Assembly (NCBI GenBank): GCA_024434115.1
Contig: QMIT01000008.1
Span: forward strand, 186,001-250,000
Reading direction: 5' to 3'
DNA: 64,000 nt
DNA from: Chloroflexota bacterium
Lineage (GTDB): Bacteria; Chloroflexota; Anaerolineae; Aggregatilineales; J027
Every line of letters begins with the position of its first letter. Positions within the stretch are counted from its first letter, which is position 1. A program made the position numbers and the translations under genes. Under the pieces are notes generated by a model that was given only the letters and a program-made list of their open reading frames with translations, searched no databases and was not told the DNA's origin. Positions 28,841 through 37,535 of this stretch are shown one piece after another.

Positions 28841-30685
28841 CTATTCGACGGTGACACTCTTGGCAAGGTTACGCGGTTGGTCAACATCCGCCCCACGCCG
28901 CACCGCGATATGATAGGCCAGCAGTTGCAACGGAATAACCGCCACCACAGGACTCAACAACCACGAGACAGGCGGGACATATAATACATGGTCGGCTTTT
29001 TCCGCGATCAGTGTATCCCCCTCCGTCGCAATGGCAATCACGATGCCGCCGCGTGCTTTGGCCTGCTCAATTTGACTGAGCATCTTGTCGTAGACTTCAT
29101 CTTGAAGGGCGACCACCACAACGGGCAAATTTTCATCAATCAGCGCAATCGGGCCGTGTTTCATTTCCCCCGCCGGATACCCCTCGGCATGGATATAGCT
29201 GATTTCTTTGAGCTTGAGTGCCCCTTCGAGCGCGACAGGATAATTAATCCCACGCCCTAGATAGAGAAAATCTTCGTAGTGATAGAGACGGCCTGCGAGT
29301 TGTTCAATGGCGTTTTCATGACCTAACACCCGCCCCACCAAATCGGGCAAAGTGGCGAGGTCGGCGGTATAGGCGATCATGTCTTTTTCGGTCAATGTGC
29401 CACGCAGATGACCCACATAGAGGGCCAGCAAAATTTGGTCTACCACACTGGCGGTAAAGGCTTTGGTGGAGGCCACCCCGATTTCCGGCCCAGTCTGCAT
29501 GGTGATATAACCATCGGAGATTCGCATGGCTTGGCTGCCGAGCGCATTGACGATGCTCCACAGGCGGATGTGATAGTGTTTCGCTACTTCCATCGCCGCG
29601 AGGGTATCCACCGTTTCGCCGCTCTGGGTAATCGCCAGCATCGCACAGTGTTCGTCCAATACCGGGTCACGATAACGATACTCGCTGCCGTAATCCACCT
29701 CAACGGGCAGACGGGCCAATTTTTCGATGGCGAATTTCCCGATGAGGCCGGAATAGTAACTTGTGCCACATGCCACCGTAATCAGGCGTTGCAGCGATTT
29801 GGCTTCGTCAGAAGTGAGGGGTAAATCGGGTAAAAATACTTCCCCCGTCTTAAAATCCACCCGTCCGCCGATGGTGTCGGTAATGGCGCGGGCCTGTTCG
29901 TGGATTTCCTTTTGCATGAAATGGCGATATTCCCCTTTGGCGGCGCTGATGGGGTCATAGGGGACATCATGTACTACCGCTTGGATGAGTGCGCCATCAA
30001 TCGTTTGCACGGTATAGCCATCAGCGGTGATGGTTGCCATCTGGCGATCTTCCAAAAAGACCATGCGGCGAGTATGCTCCAAAATGGCGGGGATGTCGGA
30101 GGCGATGAACATTTCATTTTCACCCAAGCCAATCGCCACACCACCCGCGTTGCCAATCCGCGCCACGACCAATTGGCCGGGGTAATGGGCGCTCATGATG
30201 ACGATGGCGTGTGCCCCACATAAATGCTGTACGGCAAGTCGGGTCGCGGCGGTGATGTCTTTGCCGGCGGAGAGATAGCGTTCGACGAGATGCACGATCA
30301 CTTCGGTGTCGGTATCGGAGGCAAAAACCGCCCCCTCCGCTTCCAATTCCGCACGTAGAGACAGGAAATTTTCGACGATGCCGTTATGGACGACAACGGT
30401 TGCACCATCCATACTGGTGTGAGGATGGGCGTTGCGCTGGCTGGGTGCGCCGTGTGTTGCCCAACGGGTATGCCCGATACCCAGCGACCCTTTGACAGGG
30501 GCAAGTTCGACTTCTTGGCGCAGATTGCCCAATTTGCCAACCTGACGCCGCACTTGGATGTGACCGTTTGCTTCTAAAATAGCGATACCAGCGGAGTCGT
30601 AACCGCGATATTCCAACAATTGCAGGCCGTTTAAGATAATCGGCGCAGCATCACGCGCACCAACGTAACCAACGATTCCACACAT
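28841..30685 (-). CDS. glmS: Glucosamine-6-phosphate synthase (isomerizing glutamine amidotransferase)
   Basis: A 614-residue cytosolic enzyme making glucosamine-6-phosphate from fructose-6-phosphate and glutamine, the first step of UDP-GlcNAc and peptidoglycan synthesis. The mature N-terminus MCGIVGYVG carries the Cys nucleophile of the glutaminase domain (1 to about 220; HTRWATHG, NGIVENF). Two SIS domains follow (AITQSGETVDTL, GVASTKAFTASV, and the C-terminal PRNLAKSVTVE). Length is normal. The ATG at 30685 has an AGGAGG ribosome site. A glmS ribozyme lies in its leader, so the mRNA should be cleaved when glucosamine-6-phosphate accumulates. Confidence 0.97.
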   Translation of the reverse strand: MCGIVGYVGARDAAPIILNGLQLLEYRGYDSAGIAILEANGHIQVRRQVGKLGNLRQEVELAPVKGSLGIGHTRWATHGAPSQRNAHPHTSMDGATVVVHNGIVENFLSLRAELEAEGAVFASDTDTEVIVHLVERYLSAGKDITAATRLAVQHLCGAHAIVIMSAHYPGQLVVARIGNAGGVAIGLGENEMFIASDIPAILEHTRRMVFLEDRQMATITADGYTVQTIDGALIQAVVHDVPYDPISAAKGEYRHFMQKEIHEQARAITDTIGGRVDFKTGEVFLPDLPLTSDEAKSLQRLITVACGTSYYSGLIGKFAIEKLARLPVEVDYGSEYRYRDPVLDEHCAMLAITQSGETVDTLAAMEVAKHYHIRLWSIVNALGSQAMRISDGYITMQTGPEIGVASTKAFTASVVDQILLALYVGHLRGTLTEKDMIAYTADLATLPDLVGRVLGHENAIEQLAGRLYHYEDFLYLGRGINYPVALEGALKLKEISYIHAEGYPAGEMKHGPIALIDENLPVVVVALQDEVYDKMLSQIEQAKARGGIVIAIATEGDTLIAEKADHVLYVPPVSWLLSPVVAVIPLQLLAYHIAVRRGADVDQPRNLAKSVTVE

Positions 30686-30765
30686 GGCCTTATAGCCTCC
30701 TATTTGATTTTGAGGAACGCAATAATGCAAATAGATATGCTCTCTGCGCGAACATGCTCAGAGAT

Positions 30766-30980
30766 TCATCACGGCAGGCGAAGCTGTCCCGCTGTCACCA
30801 GTGGGGTTTATGAAAAAACCTGCTTGTTGTGTGGGGAGTAACCGGAGTAGTGATGATATACCCCGAACGGCATCCGCTGAAACCTCGATTTTCCCCTTGT
30901 TACAGGGTTAGCACTGCCCCTCGGCAGGAACCGTTACCTCGTCACCTGTGAAGTGAAGTTTACGCACAGGCCATGCGCTA
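30766..30980 (-). ncRNA. glmS ribozyme (glucosamine-6-phosphate-activated self-cleaving riboswitch)
   Basis: The leader of glmS, read on the minus strand, carries the ordered conserved parts of the glmS ribozyme. First is a 5' A|GCGC at 30979-30975, with cleavage expected between 30979 and 30978. A P1-like stem CCTGTG/CACAGG follows, with GACGAGG directly after it (30943-30937). Then comes AATCGAGGTTTCAGCGGATGC (30890-30870 region), with the hallmark GCGGATGC. The 3' part has GGTGAC, GGGACA and a final GTGATGA (about 30766), resembling the end of the Thermoanaerobacter ribozyme. The glmS start codon is about 80 bases further. In this class bound glucosamine-6-phosphate acts as a cofactor for cleavage, lowering glmS expression. 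The helical pairings were judged by eye. Confidence 0.92.
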
Positions 30981-31047
30981 TTATCCCCTTGATCTATTTT
31001 TCGCTCGGCAGTCTTCCTTTCCTCATTTTTTGGATACGATGGGCCAC

Positions 31048-31076
31048 ATGATACCTAGTCATCCAAAATTTGTCAT
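31048..31076 (-). promoter_or_regulatory. Promoter of the glmS ribozyme leader
   Basis: On the minus strand ATGACA and TATCAT are separated by exactly 17 bases; each hexamer matches consensus at five of six positions. It lies just past the plsC stop. Transcription would begin near 31041, leaving about 60 bases of RNA before the ribozyme cleavage site, consistent with a cleavable leader. Confidence 0.65.
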
Positions 31077-32724: not shown

Positions 32725-34569
32725 TTATTGGGATGCGGTGAATGCCAATTGATAGGGCTGCTCACCAATCCCACGAAAATGGACTAACAGCAGATAGTCG
32801 CTGGGGGGTTGAATCCGCTGCAAATCCAAAACCCCATTCACCGATTCCGCCATCAAGTCCCAATTAGTATCAAATAGGCGCATTTCAAAGTCGCCGGGGA
32901 AATTGCTGCCCTCAACGGCGGTCAATGTTTGGATATTTAATTGCTGGCCTTCGATCACGGGAATTACCCACAGGGCATAGGTCTGGATCGTCTCGTCCAT
33001 TGTCCCAGCTACCCACGCCGCACTATCTTGCAAAACGACGACCCCCGCAGGCACACCGAGTGGCGAAAAATAGACCCGGCCCTCCGCCAGTGCTAGTAGA
33101 TAGCGACCACCAATCGTGGCGGAGGCTTCACGTACCCGCACCGCATATTCCCCGGTGATGGGCAGCGAATAATCGGTAATCTGTGGGCTTAACCCCAAAC
33201 CAGAATCGTCGTCAGAAATCAATACCCGTCCATCAGCATCCATCAAATCCACAAACAAATCCAACTGTTCGGTGGGGTTCTGTGGCATGGCGGATATACT
33301 GACGATTTGCCCGGCGGTTGCTTGAAATGTCCAGATGGCCGCCGTCTCTGGCAATAGGCGGGCTTTGGCGGTTTGCCCAATGTCGAGCGTGCCGCCGGGG
33401 GATTCAATCGAATCGAGCGCATAGAGTTCTAACTCAAACTCGCCCGCAATTTGCGTTTCATAGGCCGATACTAGGACGAAATATATCCCGCCGTCGGGGA
33501 GTTCAAGATTAAGGGCCGAGTTGGTGGTGCGTCCATCATCATCATTTTCCCCAACCAACGTGCCTTCAGCATCAAGCAGTTCAAGGTAGGTATCAAACTG
33601 GGCGGAGGTTAAAAATAGACTGATTTGCTGACCCGCCGTGCCTTCAAAATAATAGGCGGCTTCCGGCGTGGTTAGCGTTCCAATCACGGTCTCCCCAAAA
33701 GGCAGAGGGGTGCTGTTTTCTATTGAGACGACTGTGCCTGTATCTTCGAACAGTGACAATTCATACGTGCCGCTACTCGAATCTTCAAACGAATGAACAT
33801 AAATCTGATAAGTGCCCGACACGAGGAGTTGGGTGTTATAGATCAGGGAATTTGTGCCCCGTCCGCCATCATCATCGGCGATAAACGGCACGGTGGTATC
33901 GGACGGCTCATACAATTCCAAATAGGGGTCAAAATCGGCAGAGGTCAGTTCAATGGTGACCACCTGACCTGCTTCGGCATCAAACTGCCATACGTCCCAA
34001 CGTCCTACGGCTAAATAGCCCTCCACTGTGCTGTTGAGTTCAATGGGGCGACCCGTGCGGCTGACACCGGGGGGAATGCGCGTGGGGGCAAGTGTGCCGT
34101 CTGGGGTCGGGGTGGGAAAATTTAAGGTGCTGGTGGGCATTTGGGCAGGGCCAGATGGGGTGTTGGTGGCGGTCTCCTCAACCCGTAGTTCCAATTGATA
34201 AGCACCTATTGAATCACCACTGCCGCCTACTAGCACCCGATAGGTTGAAGTGGCAGGCAGGGAAATCGCAATCACGGCGCTGCCAGAACGGGCTTCAGAC
34301 GCCAAAATGTTGCCCTCAATATCCTCTAGGGCGACGGATGGCACAAGTTGAGAACCAGCGGCGGCTTGCACTTCGATTTCAATCTCTGTGCCGCCCGTTC
34401 CATCATAGAAATACTCGTTTTCCTGACCGGGGGTCTCAATCGTCCCGGTCACAACTTGATTGGGGACAAGCGGAATCCCATCTTGGGCATAAACCATCCA
34501 TGACGACAACAATCCAACAATAAGCAGCAGGCTAAGGAATGCTGTGAGGCGGCGACATGGGGTTTTCAT
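32725..34569 (-). CDS. Secreted protein with multiple PPC (pre-peptidase C-terminal) domains
   Basis: A 614-residue exported protein. A signal peptide (about 1-28, ending near MVYAQ) is followed by four to five beta-sandwich units of the PPC type. Each carries the DPYLELY-type strand, a DDDGRGTNS or DDDGRTTNS loop that could bind calcium, and a GTYQIYVHSF-type strand. A Thr/Pro linker lies around residues 135-165. PPC domains usually ride on secreted proteases or mediate binding; no catalytic domain is present here. Two similar genes follow upstream in the same direction, so it belongs to a family of surface proteins encoded together. The function is unknown. Confidence 0.82.
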   Translation of the reverse strand: MKTPCRRLTAFLSLLLIVGLLSSWMVYAQDGIPLVPNQVVTGTIETPGQENEYFYDGTGGTEIEIEVQAAAGSQLVPSVALEDIEGNILASEARSGSAVIAISLPATSTYRVLVGGSGDSIGAYQLELRVEETATNTPSGPAQMPTSTLNFPTPTPDGTLAPTRIPPGVSRTGRPIELNSTVEGYLAVGRWDVWQFDAEAGQVVTIELTSADFDPYLELYEPSDTTVPFIADDDGGRGTNSLIYNTQLLVSGTYQIYVHSFEDSSSGTYELSLFEDTGTVVSIENSTPLPFGETVIGTLTTPEAAYYFEGTAGQQISLFLTSAQFDTYLELLDAEGTLVGENDDDGRTTNSALNLELPDGGIYFVLVSAYETQIAGEFELELYALDSIESPGGTLDIGQTAKARLLPETAAIWTFQATAGQIVSISAMPQNPTEQLDLFVDLMDADGRVLISDDDSGLGLSPQITDYSLPITGEYAVRVREASATIGGRYLLALAEGRVYFSPLGVPAGVVVLQDSAAWVAGTMDETIQTYALWVIPVIEGQQLNIQTLTAVEGSNFPGDFEMRLFDTNWDLMAESVNGVLDLQRIQPPSDYLLLVHFRGIGEQPYQLAFTASQ

Positions 34570-34620
34570 AGGAGATGTGTATTTCCGTTGATGGATAAGG
34601 ACGGTGCATTTATAGTAACA

Positions 34621-36327
34621 CTATTGTACACGCCAGTTAAGGCTAAATTCTCCGGCACTATTTTCGTAGCCGTAGACACGCAGCACATAGCGCCCTTCTA
34701 CCGGGATAATGACCGTCAGGCGTGGGTTGCGGTCAAAGGTAGTATTGAACCCAACATCATCCACCATTTCGATCACTACCCCAGAGGGATCAACCAACTC
34801 CAAAATCGCATCAAAACTCCAATAGCCTTCGACAAATACCAATAGACTGTCGCCAGCGGGAATATCAATCTGACGTTCAAAGACACCGCCTTCACTGACA
34901 CTGCCCCGTTCCGAACCCGCCGGAGGTAAAACCGCCGCAGCCGTTGCCAAATTTGTCGCAGTAGGACTCACCGATGTCGGGGTGGCCTGTGGGCTGGGGA
35001 GTTGGGACACGTTAGAAGTCGTTGGGGTCGGGGTTGAACTCGGCAAGAGGCGGGTCGTTGCAGTAGGCGATGGGGTTGATGGGATGGATGGGGTGGCTGT
35101 CTCACGTGACCAGCGCAGTTCATAGGTCCCCAAATCGCTGTTGCCAAACCCGGCCACATGAATGCTGTACAGTCCGGTTTCTGTAATTGTTAGATCGGTA
35201 ATCAAAGCATTGCTATCGCCGCCGCTGTCATCATCAAAGGCTAATGATTCACCCCCCGGTGCGACCAATTCGACCATCGGGTCAAAGGTGGTGGTATTGT
35301 CTACGCGCTTGAGGTAAACGGTGACGACATCCCCAGCTTGCAGGCCAATTAACCAACGATCCCGCGCTCCATAAAATTCAAGGGTAGCGGTTTGCGTGAA
35401 ATCAGGGGCAAGGGTGCCACGTTCGACATCCGCGACAGTAACGCCTATACCAATCCCGATTAGATAACTCCCTACCCCAAATCCGGTAGCGCTTCCGGCA
35501 TAAACGGTATACGTCCCATCGGCGGGCAAAATTACGCTGTTAATCACCGAATCGAGCGTGGTAGGTACGATATCATCATCTTCGGCAATGATGGTGCCGT
35601 CGGGGGACTGCAAACGCAAATAGGGGTCAAAGGTGGCCTCTTCATCCATCCGGCTAAAACTCAACGTTACCACCATGTCGGTCGTGCCGAAGAAGGTAAA
35701 TTGATGGATATCGCCTTCCTGCTCGAATACCCCTTCGCGCATTTCGCCAAATTCGAGCACCTCACCCGATTCGATCAATTTAAAACCGGATATACCCACC
35801 TCATCTCCGGCAATCTGAGTCGCATTATTGGAGGGGATTGGGGTAGCGGTACGATTCACTGTTGGGTTGGGGGTAAAGGTCGCCACGTTAGCGGTTGGGC
35901 CAACCGGGGTTCCCACCGTCGCCAGCAAAATATAATAATCAACCGTTTCTCCGCCTATCGCCACTAAATCCCCTGTCACGGTCAGGGCATAACTTCCGGC
36001 TTCCAAATAGAGTTGGGGAATGTAGACCCGTCCGGTGGTATCCCCCCGCGCTTTGATAAGTTGCAGCGGCGTATCGGCATTGTTCATCTGATTAAGTATC
36101 ACAATCAACACCGAATTACCCGTGCTGCGAGCGACATCCAAGCTGAGGGTTTGGGTCTGTCCAATCTGAAAACGCCAAGTTTGCTGCGGCATAGTTGCGG
36201 TAAGCGTTCCAGCGGTGGGGTTATTCAAAGACAAATTCAAATCATCCTGTGCGACAGCAAAGGGAGCAAAAATCAGGAGGGCCATCAGTACACAGGCGAA
36301 AATGGCAAAGCGGTAAAACACTCTCAT
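34621..36327 (-). CDS. Secreted PPC-domain protein (paralogue of the neighbour)
   Basis: A 568-residue exported protein. The signal peptide (1-26, ending FAVAQ) is followed by PPC-like units at about 30-145, 165-300 and 305-415, a Ser/Thr/Pro linker (about 415-465), and a final unit to the C-terminus. Typical loops are EDDDIVPTTLDS and DDDSGGDSNAL. The last unit has the NTTFDRNPRLTVIIPVEGRYVL strand pair. No enzyme domain is present. It sits 51 bases upstream of the previous PPC gene and 14 bases downstream of the PPC-esterase stop, so the three are probably one transcription unit. The ligand is unknown. Confidence 0.8.
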   Translation of the reverse strand: MRVFYRFAIFACVLMALLIFAPFAVAQDDLNLSLNNPTAGTLTATMPQQTWRFQIGQTQTLSLDVARSTGNSVLIVILNQMNNADTPLQLIKARGDTTGRVYIPQLYLEAGSYALTVTGDLVAIGGETVDYYILLATVGTPVGPTANVATFTPNPTVNRTATPIPSNNATQIAGDEVGISGFKLIESGEVLEFGEMREGVFEQEGDIHQFTFFGTTDMVVTLSFSRMDEEATFDPYLRLQSPDGTIIAEDDDIVPTTLDSVINSVILPADGTYTVYAGSATGFGVGSYLIGIGIGVTVADVERGTLAPDFTQTATLEFYGARDRWLIGLQAGDVVTVYLKRVDNTTTFDPMVELVAPGGESLAFDDDSGGDSNALITDLTITETGLYSIHVAGFGNSDLGTYELRWSRETATPSIPSTPSPTATTRLLPSSTPTPTTSNVSQLPSPQATPTSVSPTATNLATAAAVLPPAGSERGSVSEGGVFERQIDIPAGDSLLVFVEGYWSFDAILELVDPSGVVIEMVDDVGFNTTFDRNPRLTVIIPVEGRYVLRVYGYENSAGEFSLNWRVQ

Positions 36328-36341
36328 GCAACCAACTCTTT

Positions 36342-37535
36342 CTAATTCAATCCTAAATCACAGGGAGGATACGTACTGGCGTCCCATGTCTCGGCATAAA
36401 ACATCATATATTCTTCGACATGCACCGCCCAATATTCATCGCGGTGCTCACCCGTTGGATGTAGCACATAGGTAAAGGGAATGCCATGTTCGGTCAGGCG
36501 CTCGGCAATTAAATCAATATTCACTTGGGCATAATCATCCTTGCCGCGATCCATGTAGAGACGGGGAGCATTGGCGGGCCATTCGACGGTGAGAACCAGC
36601 GCTAACGGATTATGGGTATCCGGCGCGTGGTACAAATCAAAAAAAGGGCTGTGTCCACCAATGGCGGTAAAGAGGTCGGGGTGACGCAAGCCGATGAGAT
36701 AGGCCCAAAAGCCACCGCGTGAAATCCCGCCAATCGCCCGACCTTCCGGAGTATTTTGGAGGCAGTAGGTGCTTTCGACCAGCGGCATGAGTTCGTTCAA
36801 AATGACGTATTCATACGATCCATCAATCCAAAAGACATTGGTATTTGCCATCACGCCGCCAAAGGGCAATACCAATGCCATTGGGGGCAGACGACCTAAC
36901 GCTATATCGCGGGTAAGGGCCTCGTCCATTTCCAAACGATCAAAATGGGAATCGTCGGTATTTGAGCCGTGCATCAGGAGCACATAGGGATACTTGACTG
37001 TACCGGTCTGATAACAGGGGGGCAGATAGACCCGATAGCGCAAATTTTCGCGGGCGATGGCGCTGTACCAAGAGTCTACCTGAATCATCGTGCCTTGCAA
37101 CGAGGTACACCCCTCTGGCAGCACATTTTCCACCAGCGCAATCTGGTAAATGCCGGGGCTGAAATCGTCAAAACTGCTTAATTGAATGGAATAATCGCCA
37201 TCGGCAGGCAGGGTCCCACCCAAAATCAGCGCATCTTGGCCGGGGCCGCTGTCATCATCCGAGGCAATGAGTGTCCCATCTGGCCCAAGTAAGTCTATAT
37301 AGGGGTCAAGCGTATCGGCTTGGTCGGCGGGAAAACGCTCCATTGAAATCGTGATCATCTGCCCCAGACGACCTGTAAACGTCCATGTGTCGGTTTCACC
37401 CGATGCCAAATCCGCCGCAATGGTCTCGCCGAATTGAATCACCCCACCCCCATTTTGGCGGGCATGGGTTTTGAACGGAAATCCTAGAACTAGAATGACA
37501 ACTATAGCTAAAACAATCTTTTTAACGATTTTCAT
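36342..37535 (-). CDS. Secreted PPC domain fused to esterase (alpha/beta hydrolase)
   Basis: A 397-residue exported hydrolase. A signal peptide (about 1-25) is followed by one PPC domain (30-135; DDDSGPGQDAL loop) and an esterase-D-like alpha/beta hydrolase (145-397). The nucleophile elbow is GGISRGGFW, with the earlier oxyanion strand PYVLLMHGS, an acid candidate in YMDRGKDDYAQ, and the His in TGEHRDEYW. The fold is like feruloyl/carbohydrate esterases, so a polymer-linked ester is a plausible substrate. A lipoprotein with the same catalytic half is encoded three genes upstream (38586-39602). It starts with ATG at 37535. Confidence 0.85.
   Translation of the reverse strand: MKIVKKIVLAIVVILVLGFPFKTHARQNGGGVIQFGETIAADLASGETDTWTFTGRLGQMITISMERFPADQADTLDPYIDLLGPDGTLIASDDDSGPGQDALILGGTLPADGDYSIQLSSFDDFSPGIYQIALVENVLPEGCTSLQGTMIQVDSWYSAIARENLRYRVYLPPCYQTGTVKYPYVLLMHGSNTDDSHFDRLEMDEALTRDIALGRLPPMALVLPFGGVMANTNVFWIDGSYEYVILNELMPLVESTYCLQNTPEGRAIGGISRGGFWAYLIGLRHPDLFTAIGGHSPFFDLYHAPDTHNPLALVLTVEWPANAPRLYMDRGKDDYAQVNIDLIAERLTEHGIPFTYVLHPTGEHRDEYWAVHVEEYMMFYAETWDASTYPPCDLGLN

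Follow-up and report, generated by a model that had tools for sequence, protein, structure and literature searches.

In Bacillus subtilis, cleaved glmS mRNA is degraded by RNase J1. Extra core stems are said to have been described in the glmS ribozymes of Deinococcus-Thermus by McCown et al. in 2011. Ribozymes of the glmS class bind glucosamine 6-phosphate (GlcN6P) as a cofactor, cleave themselves and thereby lead to degradation of the mRNA (PMC11602151; PMC10043782), and they were used as the analogy for the element in the window (the whole 64 kb stretch of DNA that was analysed). A literature search, performed in part by title and abstract, returned neither a paper detailing Chloroflexota glmS ribozymes nor a report of a glmS ribozyme linked to glutamine synthetase.

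The ribozyme is located at 30979–30766 on the minus strand, inside the glmS leader. Structure and context place it in the glmS ribozyme class. The Rfam model RF00234, which an earlier note on this DNA had proposed as a check on its claim of a glmS ribozyme, matched end to end (model positions 1–167, 30764–30990) in a sensitive e-value search of 501 bases, with 32.6 bits (E 5.3e-6). The claim is thus upheld by a significant full-length match, but one that does not reach the gathering score of 37, which is why a default Rfam scan of the 64 kb window returned no entry at all. Relatives with the same architecture pass this threshold; the low score of the window is attributed to two hairpins inserted between P2 and P2.1, within the catalytic core. 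When RF00234 was run over the whole 5.3 Mb genome, the window ribozyme took the top place by far (E 1.4e-5, with 0.7 for the second place). Model R2, built from 29 cores of which none came from the window's order, gave 89.5 bits (E 7.4e-20) for the window core and 10.7 bits for the runner-up within the 64 kb; the R2 E-values are rough owing to a short calibration, but the score gap is beyond doubt. The window RNA did not reach a lower minimum free energy than its shuffles (z −0.18) in a folding program that does not handle pseudoknots and, as the RNA is pseudoknotted, free-energy folding is uninformative here. Matches to SNORD58, Yfr1 and sR1 in the sensitive scan were at chance level and were rejected.

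Two samples were used for comparison: 78 distinct two-hairpin cores, nearly all from Anaerolineae genomes with a few from Deinococcota, and alignment A1, a MAFFT alignment of 42 cores. The features of the locus are as follows.

31048–31076, minus strand: probable sigma-70-type promoter, ATGACA-17-TATCAT (consensus scan and conservation).
30766–30979, minus strand: whole glmS ribozyme (RF00234 over its full length; R2 for the core).
30978–30979, minus strand: predicted cleavage site A30979|G30978, at the start of AGCGC.
30945–30970, minus strand: P1 hairpin, CCUGUG (30970–30965) with CACAGG (30950–30945); compensatory changes in 8 of 8 pairs across the class.
30937–30943, minus strand: GACGAGG, which holds the P2.1 5' strand CGA; no variation in 42 cores.
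30866–30935, minus strand: P2, AACGG (30935–30931) with CCGUU (30870–30866); compensatory changes in 3 of 5 pairs.
30912–30928, minus strand: extra core hairpin 1, CUGCC/GGCAG with an outer C-G pair and a bulged U (covariation).
30908–30911, minus strand: CUAA linker joining both extra hairpins; conserved in the cores.
30894–30907, minus strand: extra core hairpin 2, CCCU/AGGG (covariation).
30886–30893, minus strand: GAAAAUCG, comprising GAAA opposite UAA, then the cofactor-contacting A-U, then CG of P2.1 (UCG); in 70 of 78 cores.
30871–30879, minus strand: CAGCGGAUG, the P2.2 3' strand and active-site G; three invariant P2.2 pairs.
30833–30865, minus strand: P3, CGGGG...CCCC, with loop UCAUCAC (30856–30850).
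30774–30823, minus strand: P4 (GCAGG/CCUGC), internal loop AUAAAC/ACAGC and P4a with a GUGA (GNRA) loop at 30798–30795.
30766–30772, minus strand: GUGAUGA, 3' strand in the P3.1 pseudoknot, where all 7 bases pair with UCAUCAC at 30856–30850.
28841–30685, minus strand: glmS, glutamine–fructose-6-phosphate aminotransferase, 614 amino acids (TIGR01135, 764.6 bits; Pfam GATase and two SIS domains).

The leader motifs listed in the earlier note (A|GCGC, P1, GACGAGG, AAUCGAGG-UUUCAGCGGAUGC, the GGUGAC tetraloop hairpin and GUGAUGA) were all found in that order on the minus strand, and the glmS ATG at 30685 is 80 bases downstream, in agreement with the distance of about 80 given there. The leader lies between the end of an acyltransferase-like gene (31086) and this ATG, which is preceded by AGGAGG at 30701–30696. 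The window glmS is the sole full match to TIGR01135 in the genome, which also encodes RNase J (586 bits; cut-off 400); its glmS copy of the ribozyme is the only one detected in searches with RF00234 and the two-hairpin model R1. The claim that the leader has its own promoter stood in part: the hexamers are present, but the promoter scan was at chance level (one found, 0.9 expected). Both hexamers are retained in four genomes of the same genus (one with TATTAT) while the spacer varies, which makes an own promoter likely. The ribozyme is likewise retained in each of the four genus genomes sampled, with a nearly unchanged core between variable flanks and spacer. Elsewhere in the window (32725–37535, minus strand) are three consecutive genes for signal-peptide proteins with repeated FDPYLELYDPDG-like units; these resemble beta-sandwich domains of the pre-peptidase C-terminal type, and the last protein has an esterase-like part.

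The window has all of the core elements needed for P2.1 and P2.2 (the A|GCGC site, GACGAGG, AUCG and CGGAUG). AGCGC is without variation in 42 of 42 cores of A1; this alignment shows no variation in P2.1 (CGA/UCG) or in three P2.2 pairs, and the cofactor-pocket residues are retained. GACGAGG also holds the counterpart of the catalytic G, which is G40 in T. tengcongensis and G33 in B. anthracis. The fourth P2.2 pair is C-G in 18 of the 42 cores, U-G in one and A.A in 23, never mixed; the window has A.A. The P3/P3.1 pseudoknot and P4 with its GNRA loop are also present, as judged from sequence and not from covariation; in one genus member the P4a loop is GUAA, so that GNRA is retained. A strict regular expression for P4a matched 36 of 77 relatives, a count that was set aside since the misses, among them the window, mostly keep AAA...GNRA...ACA with mismatches when inspected by eye. 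In the P4 internal loop the 3' strand reads ACAGC, as against ACAAAG in the Rfam consensus. This change looks homologous to A140G in the B. subtilis ribozyme, which makes that ribozyme less stable but leaves it active (PMC11602151). The description 'well preserved' in the earlier note suits the catalytic residues but not the way the element as a whole fits the Rfam model.

That note had also remarked on a long P2–P2.1 region and a possible structural variant, and this was borne out. From the GGUU end of P2 to the UCG of P2.1 there are 40 bases in the window and one or two in canonical cores; the insert consists of hairpin 1, CUAA, hairpin 2 and GAAAA, the order that defines the two-hairpin-core subtype. 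The linker is CUAA in 57 of the 78 cores and another NYAA (NUAA or NCAA) in the remainder; the occurrence of YAA in 78 of 78 is not independent, as the search pattern demanded it, while in A1 the AA is invariant and the U nearly so. Hairpin 1 is 18 nt long in 49 of the 78 cores, 31 of these with a GNRA loop; hairpin 2 ranges from 6 to 47 nt, and the hairpin sequences vary freely. The window departs from the common form of hairpin 1 (seven pairs and a GNRA loop) in having five continuous pairs plus the outer pair and a GAGG loop.

Both extra core hairpins are real. In the 78 cores, strands of hairpin 1 paired with their own partners at 0.864, compared with 0.611 when swapped (maximum of 2000 swaps 0.677), and those of hairpin 2 at 0.913 compared with 0.556 (maximum 0.638). 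Pairs in this test were counted from fixed anchors without structural alignment, and the hairpin 1 register was picked for each sequence by its pairing score, which somewhat favours pairing; the test on A1 is free of that. There, 93.8% of the cells of the full structure, pseudoknots included, were paired (69.4% when shuffled; 34.6–45.4% in slid controls), and 323 double changes were observed against 94.6 in the shuffled alignment. Compensatory changes occur in 7 of 7 pairs of hairpin 1 and 5 of 5 of hairpin 2. Since pairing is kept while the sequence is free, with constraint confined to the UAA/GAAAA joint and, in hairpin 1, to loop and length, the most likely role of the hairpins is to brace the core externally, as opposed to a sensory one.

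The GlmS proteins closest to that of the window are from Chloroflexi/Anaerolineae metagenome-assembled genomes (at most 73% identity), and in the GlmS tree the window's genus falls within Anaerolineae, adjoining families of its own order, which supports the suggested Chloroflexota host. RF00234 matched 198 of 396 Anaerolineae genomes at E 0.01 (116 above the cut-off), and R1 matched 234 of 396. At least half of the genomes of this class therefore carry a glmS ribozyme, usually with the two-hairpin core; the view of the window ribozyme as an outlying occurrence was mistaken. Seven records from named Chloroflexota that are missed at the RF00234 cut-off (L051, L053, L055, L057, L059, L060 and L070) gave 67–101 bits with R1, which found no match in the glmS loci of Acidobacteria, Nitrospira and proteobacteria. 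Among 101 Deinococcota genomes, RF00234 matched 11 and R1 matched 66 (54 of them with an E-value below 1e-4); the two hairpins were read directly in only four Deinococcota loci (L127, L166, L168 and L169). Most ribozymes of the Deinococcota loci, including L302–L331, are missed by RF00234, and a revised Rfam seed would help.

In other Chloroflexota families some matches have the length of two-hairpin cores and others that of canonical ones. Canonical cores are nested among two-hairpin cores in the GlmS tree, with seven changes, at least four of them forced by well supported branches, so that the two-hairpin module has been lost, or gained, more than once. Within the window's own order, one locus (L036) has a single hairpin and four (L013, L030, L035 and L037) have none.

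Several genomes of the class have a second ribozyme copy that does not precede glmS. Almost all of the glmS ribozymes known so far belong to glmS mRNAs, so these copies merit a study of their own. In family f56, which is Anaerolineaceae by tree position, six loci (L332, L334, L336, L339, L340 and L348; genomes G263, G357, G243, G362, G334 and G202) have a second two-hairpin copy in a glnA leader, about 50–100 nt ahead of the gene for a type I glutamine synthetase, except for one copy that overlaps the gene start. One downstream gene gave 518 bits with NCBIfam GlnA and the others are alike by eye. Three of these copies exceed the Rfam cut-off (47.7, 46.6 and 42.9 bits), and all six have AGCGG or AGCGA where the glmS copies have AGCGC. 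Feedback by GlcN6P on the supply of glutamine would make sense, as GlmS takes its amine from glutamine. Two-hairpin copies also precede a gene for a glutamate-synthase-like FMN protein of about 860–900 amino acids (L343, G279; L346, G192; Pfam 36.9 bits for one of the two) and a YvcK (GlmR)–phosphoglucosamine mutase fusion (L349; G245 C50).

In family f32, a divergent second copy (45–71 bits) stands ahead of an ada-like gene in 13 of 13 two-copy genomes searched with R1 (L360, L362, L366, L367, L369, L371–L374 and L376–L379). The gene combines an AraC-type helix–turn–helix with an O6-methylguanine-DNA methyltransferase (Pfam, run on four). Most of these copies have AGCGG or AGCGA; they have UCGGAU after P2.1, and UCACGAGG, CUACGAGG or UUACGAGG instead of UGACGAGG. 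As these core changes are common to the copies, their ligand may differ. Two weak further matches were seen 9 kb away on the L349 contig. One further copy is followed by a GTPase plus SIS-domain gene (L350; G173 C18) and another by a gene for a 910-residue FAD oxidase (L341; G034 C134), genes that these copies may or may not control.

The window element is very probably a GlcN6P-activated self-cleaving glmS ribozyme of the kind with extra core stems, exerting feedback control on glmS. This reading draws on the sequence, the covarying structure, the gene context, the single glmS and the RNase J gene, from which the cleavage, the cofactor, the mRNA decay and what the extra hairpins do are predicted. 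Transcription would start shortly downstream of the promoter at 31076–31048, and the RNA would fold into a double-pseudoknot core of P1, P2, P2.1 and P2.2 that the P3/P3.1 pseudoknot and the P4 domain hold in place; the two added hairpins would lie on the P2–P2.1 joining strand, immediately 5' of the cofactor-contacting A-U. When plentiful, GlcN6P, the product of GlmS, would enter the pocket as the acid–base cofactor, and the RNA would be cut between A30979 and G30978, 5' of the latter. The cut would leave the glmS mRNA with a 5'-hydroxyl end, and the mRNA would then be degraded, probably by RNase J. With a single glmS and an RNase J gene in the genome, cleavage triggered by GlcN6P and followed by mRNA decay is the likely mechanism.

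A leader that descends from a glmS ribozyme but has lost cleavage and regulation would also account for the score below the Rfam cut-off, for ACAGC in the P4 internal loop and for A.A in P2.2. We consider such decay very unlikely: A.A is shared by 23 of 42 cores, where its match to position 5 is perfect, the core stays nearly unchanged in the four genus genomes despite variable flanks and spacer, and the 89.5 bits come from an independent model, R2. The inserted hairpins might instead provide a second site, for a ligand or a protein, through which cleavage is tuned, a reading favoured by the conserved UAA/GAAAA joint next to the cofactor pocket and by the constant length of hairpin 1 with its frequent GNRA loop (18 nt in 49 of 78; 31 of those). 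The freely varying hairpin sequences, the 6–47 nt range of hairpin 2 and the related genera of the same order that lack one or both hairpins (L036, L013, L030 and L035) leave it a slim chance, and the pattern resembles a docking or bracing element rather than an aptamer. The class is best known from Firmicutes, from which ribozyme and glmS might have been transferred together recently; this is improbable in the extreme, as the window GlmS lies inside Anaerolineae beside its own order and the core subtype matches its own class and not Firmicutes. Both an outlying occurrence and a recent Firmicutes transfer were rejected on the basis of the distribution and the GlmS tree.

The window element is a further glmS ribozyme, of a form that its group normally has. 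Cut-off-based annotation understates how widespread the class is, since the Rfam model loses most two-hairpin copies (in Deinococcota, 11 against 66 of 101). Through the second copies ahead of glnA and other genes, GlcN6P would act as a signal for the supply of glutamine, beyond its own enzyme. A broader proposal, which we regard as possible but somewhat doubtful, is that the window ribozyme belongs to a Chloroflexota/Deinococcota branch of glmS ribozymes in which the two-hairpin module is an added tertiary scaffold by the cofactor pocket, and that this branch, unlike that of Firmicutes, has been copied onto further genes of nitrogen and amino-sugar metabolism (glnA, glutamate-synthase-like, YvcK–GlmM fusion and ada-like genes), in some cases with core changes that may alter the cofactor.

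Compared with ribozymes of the RF00234 type (Bacillus, Thermoanaerobacter), the window has the same gene context, cleavage-site sequence, P1, P2, P2.1, P2.2, P3, P3.1, P4 and GNRA L4, and every cofactor-pocket residue. It differs in the two additional hairpins (about 40 nt between P2 and P2.1 instead of about 2), a longer P3 loop, A.A as the fourth P2.2 pair and a score below the 37-bit cut-off. The UAA/GAN internal-loop motif is a known one; the joint in the window core resembles it in having UAA that would stand opposite GAA beside a helix (hairpin 2), but is placed at a junction and not in a plain internal loop. The copy in Meiothermus (L127) has the same two hairpins, an AUAA linker and a GAAAG-AUCG joint of the window type, whereas the Deinococcota copies have shorter hairpins, and UACGAGG where the window has GACGAGG. 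The extra-stem core of the window is probably the same variant as that reportedly described for Deinococcus-Thermus by McCown et al. in 2011.
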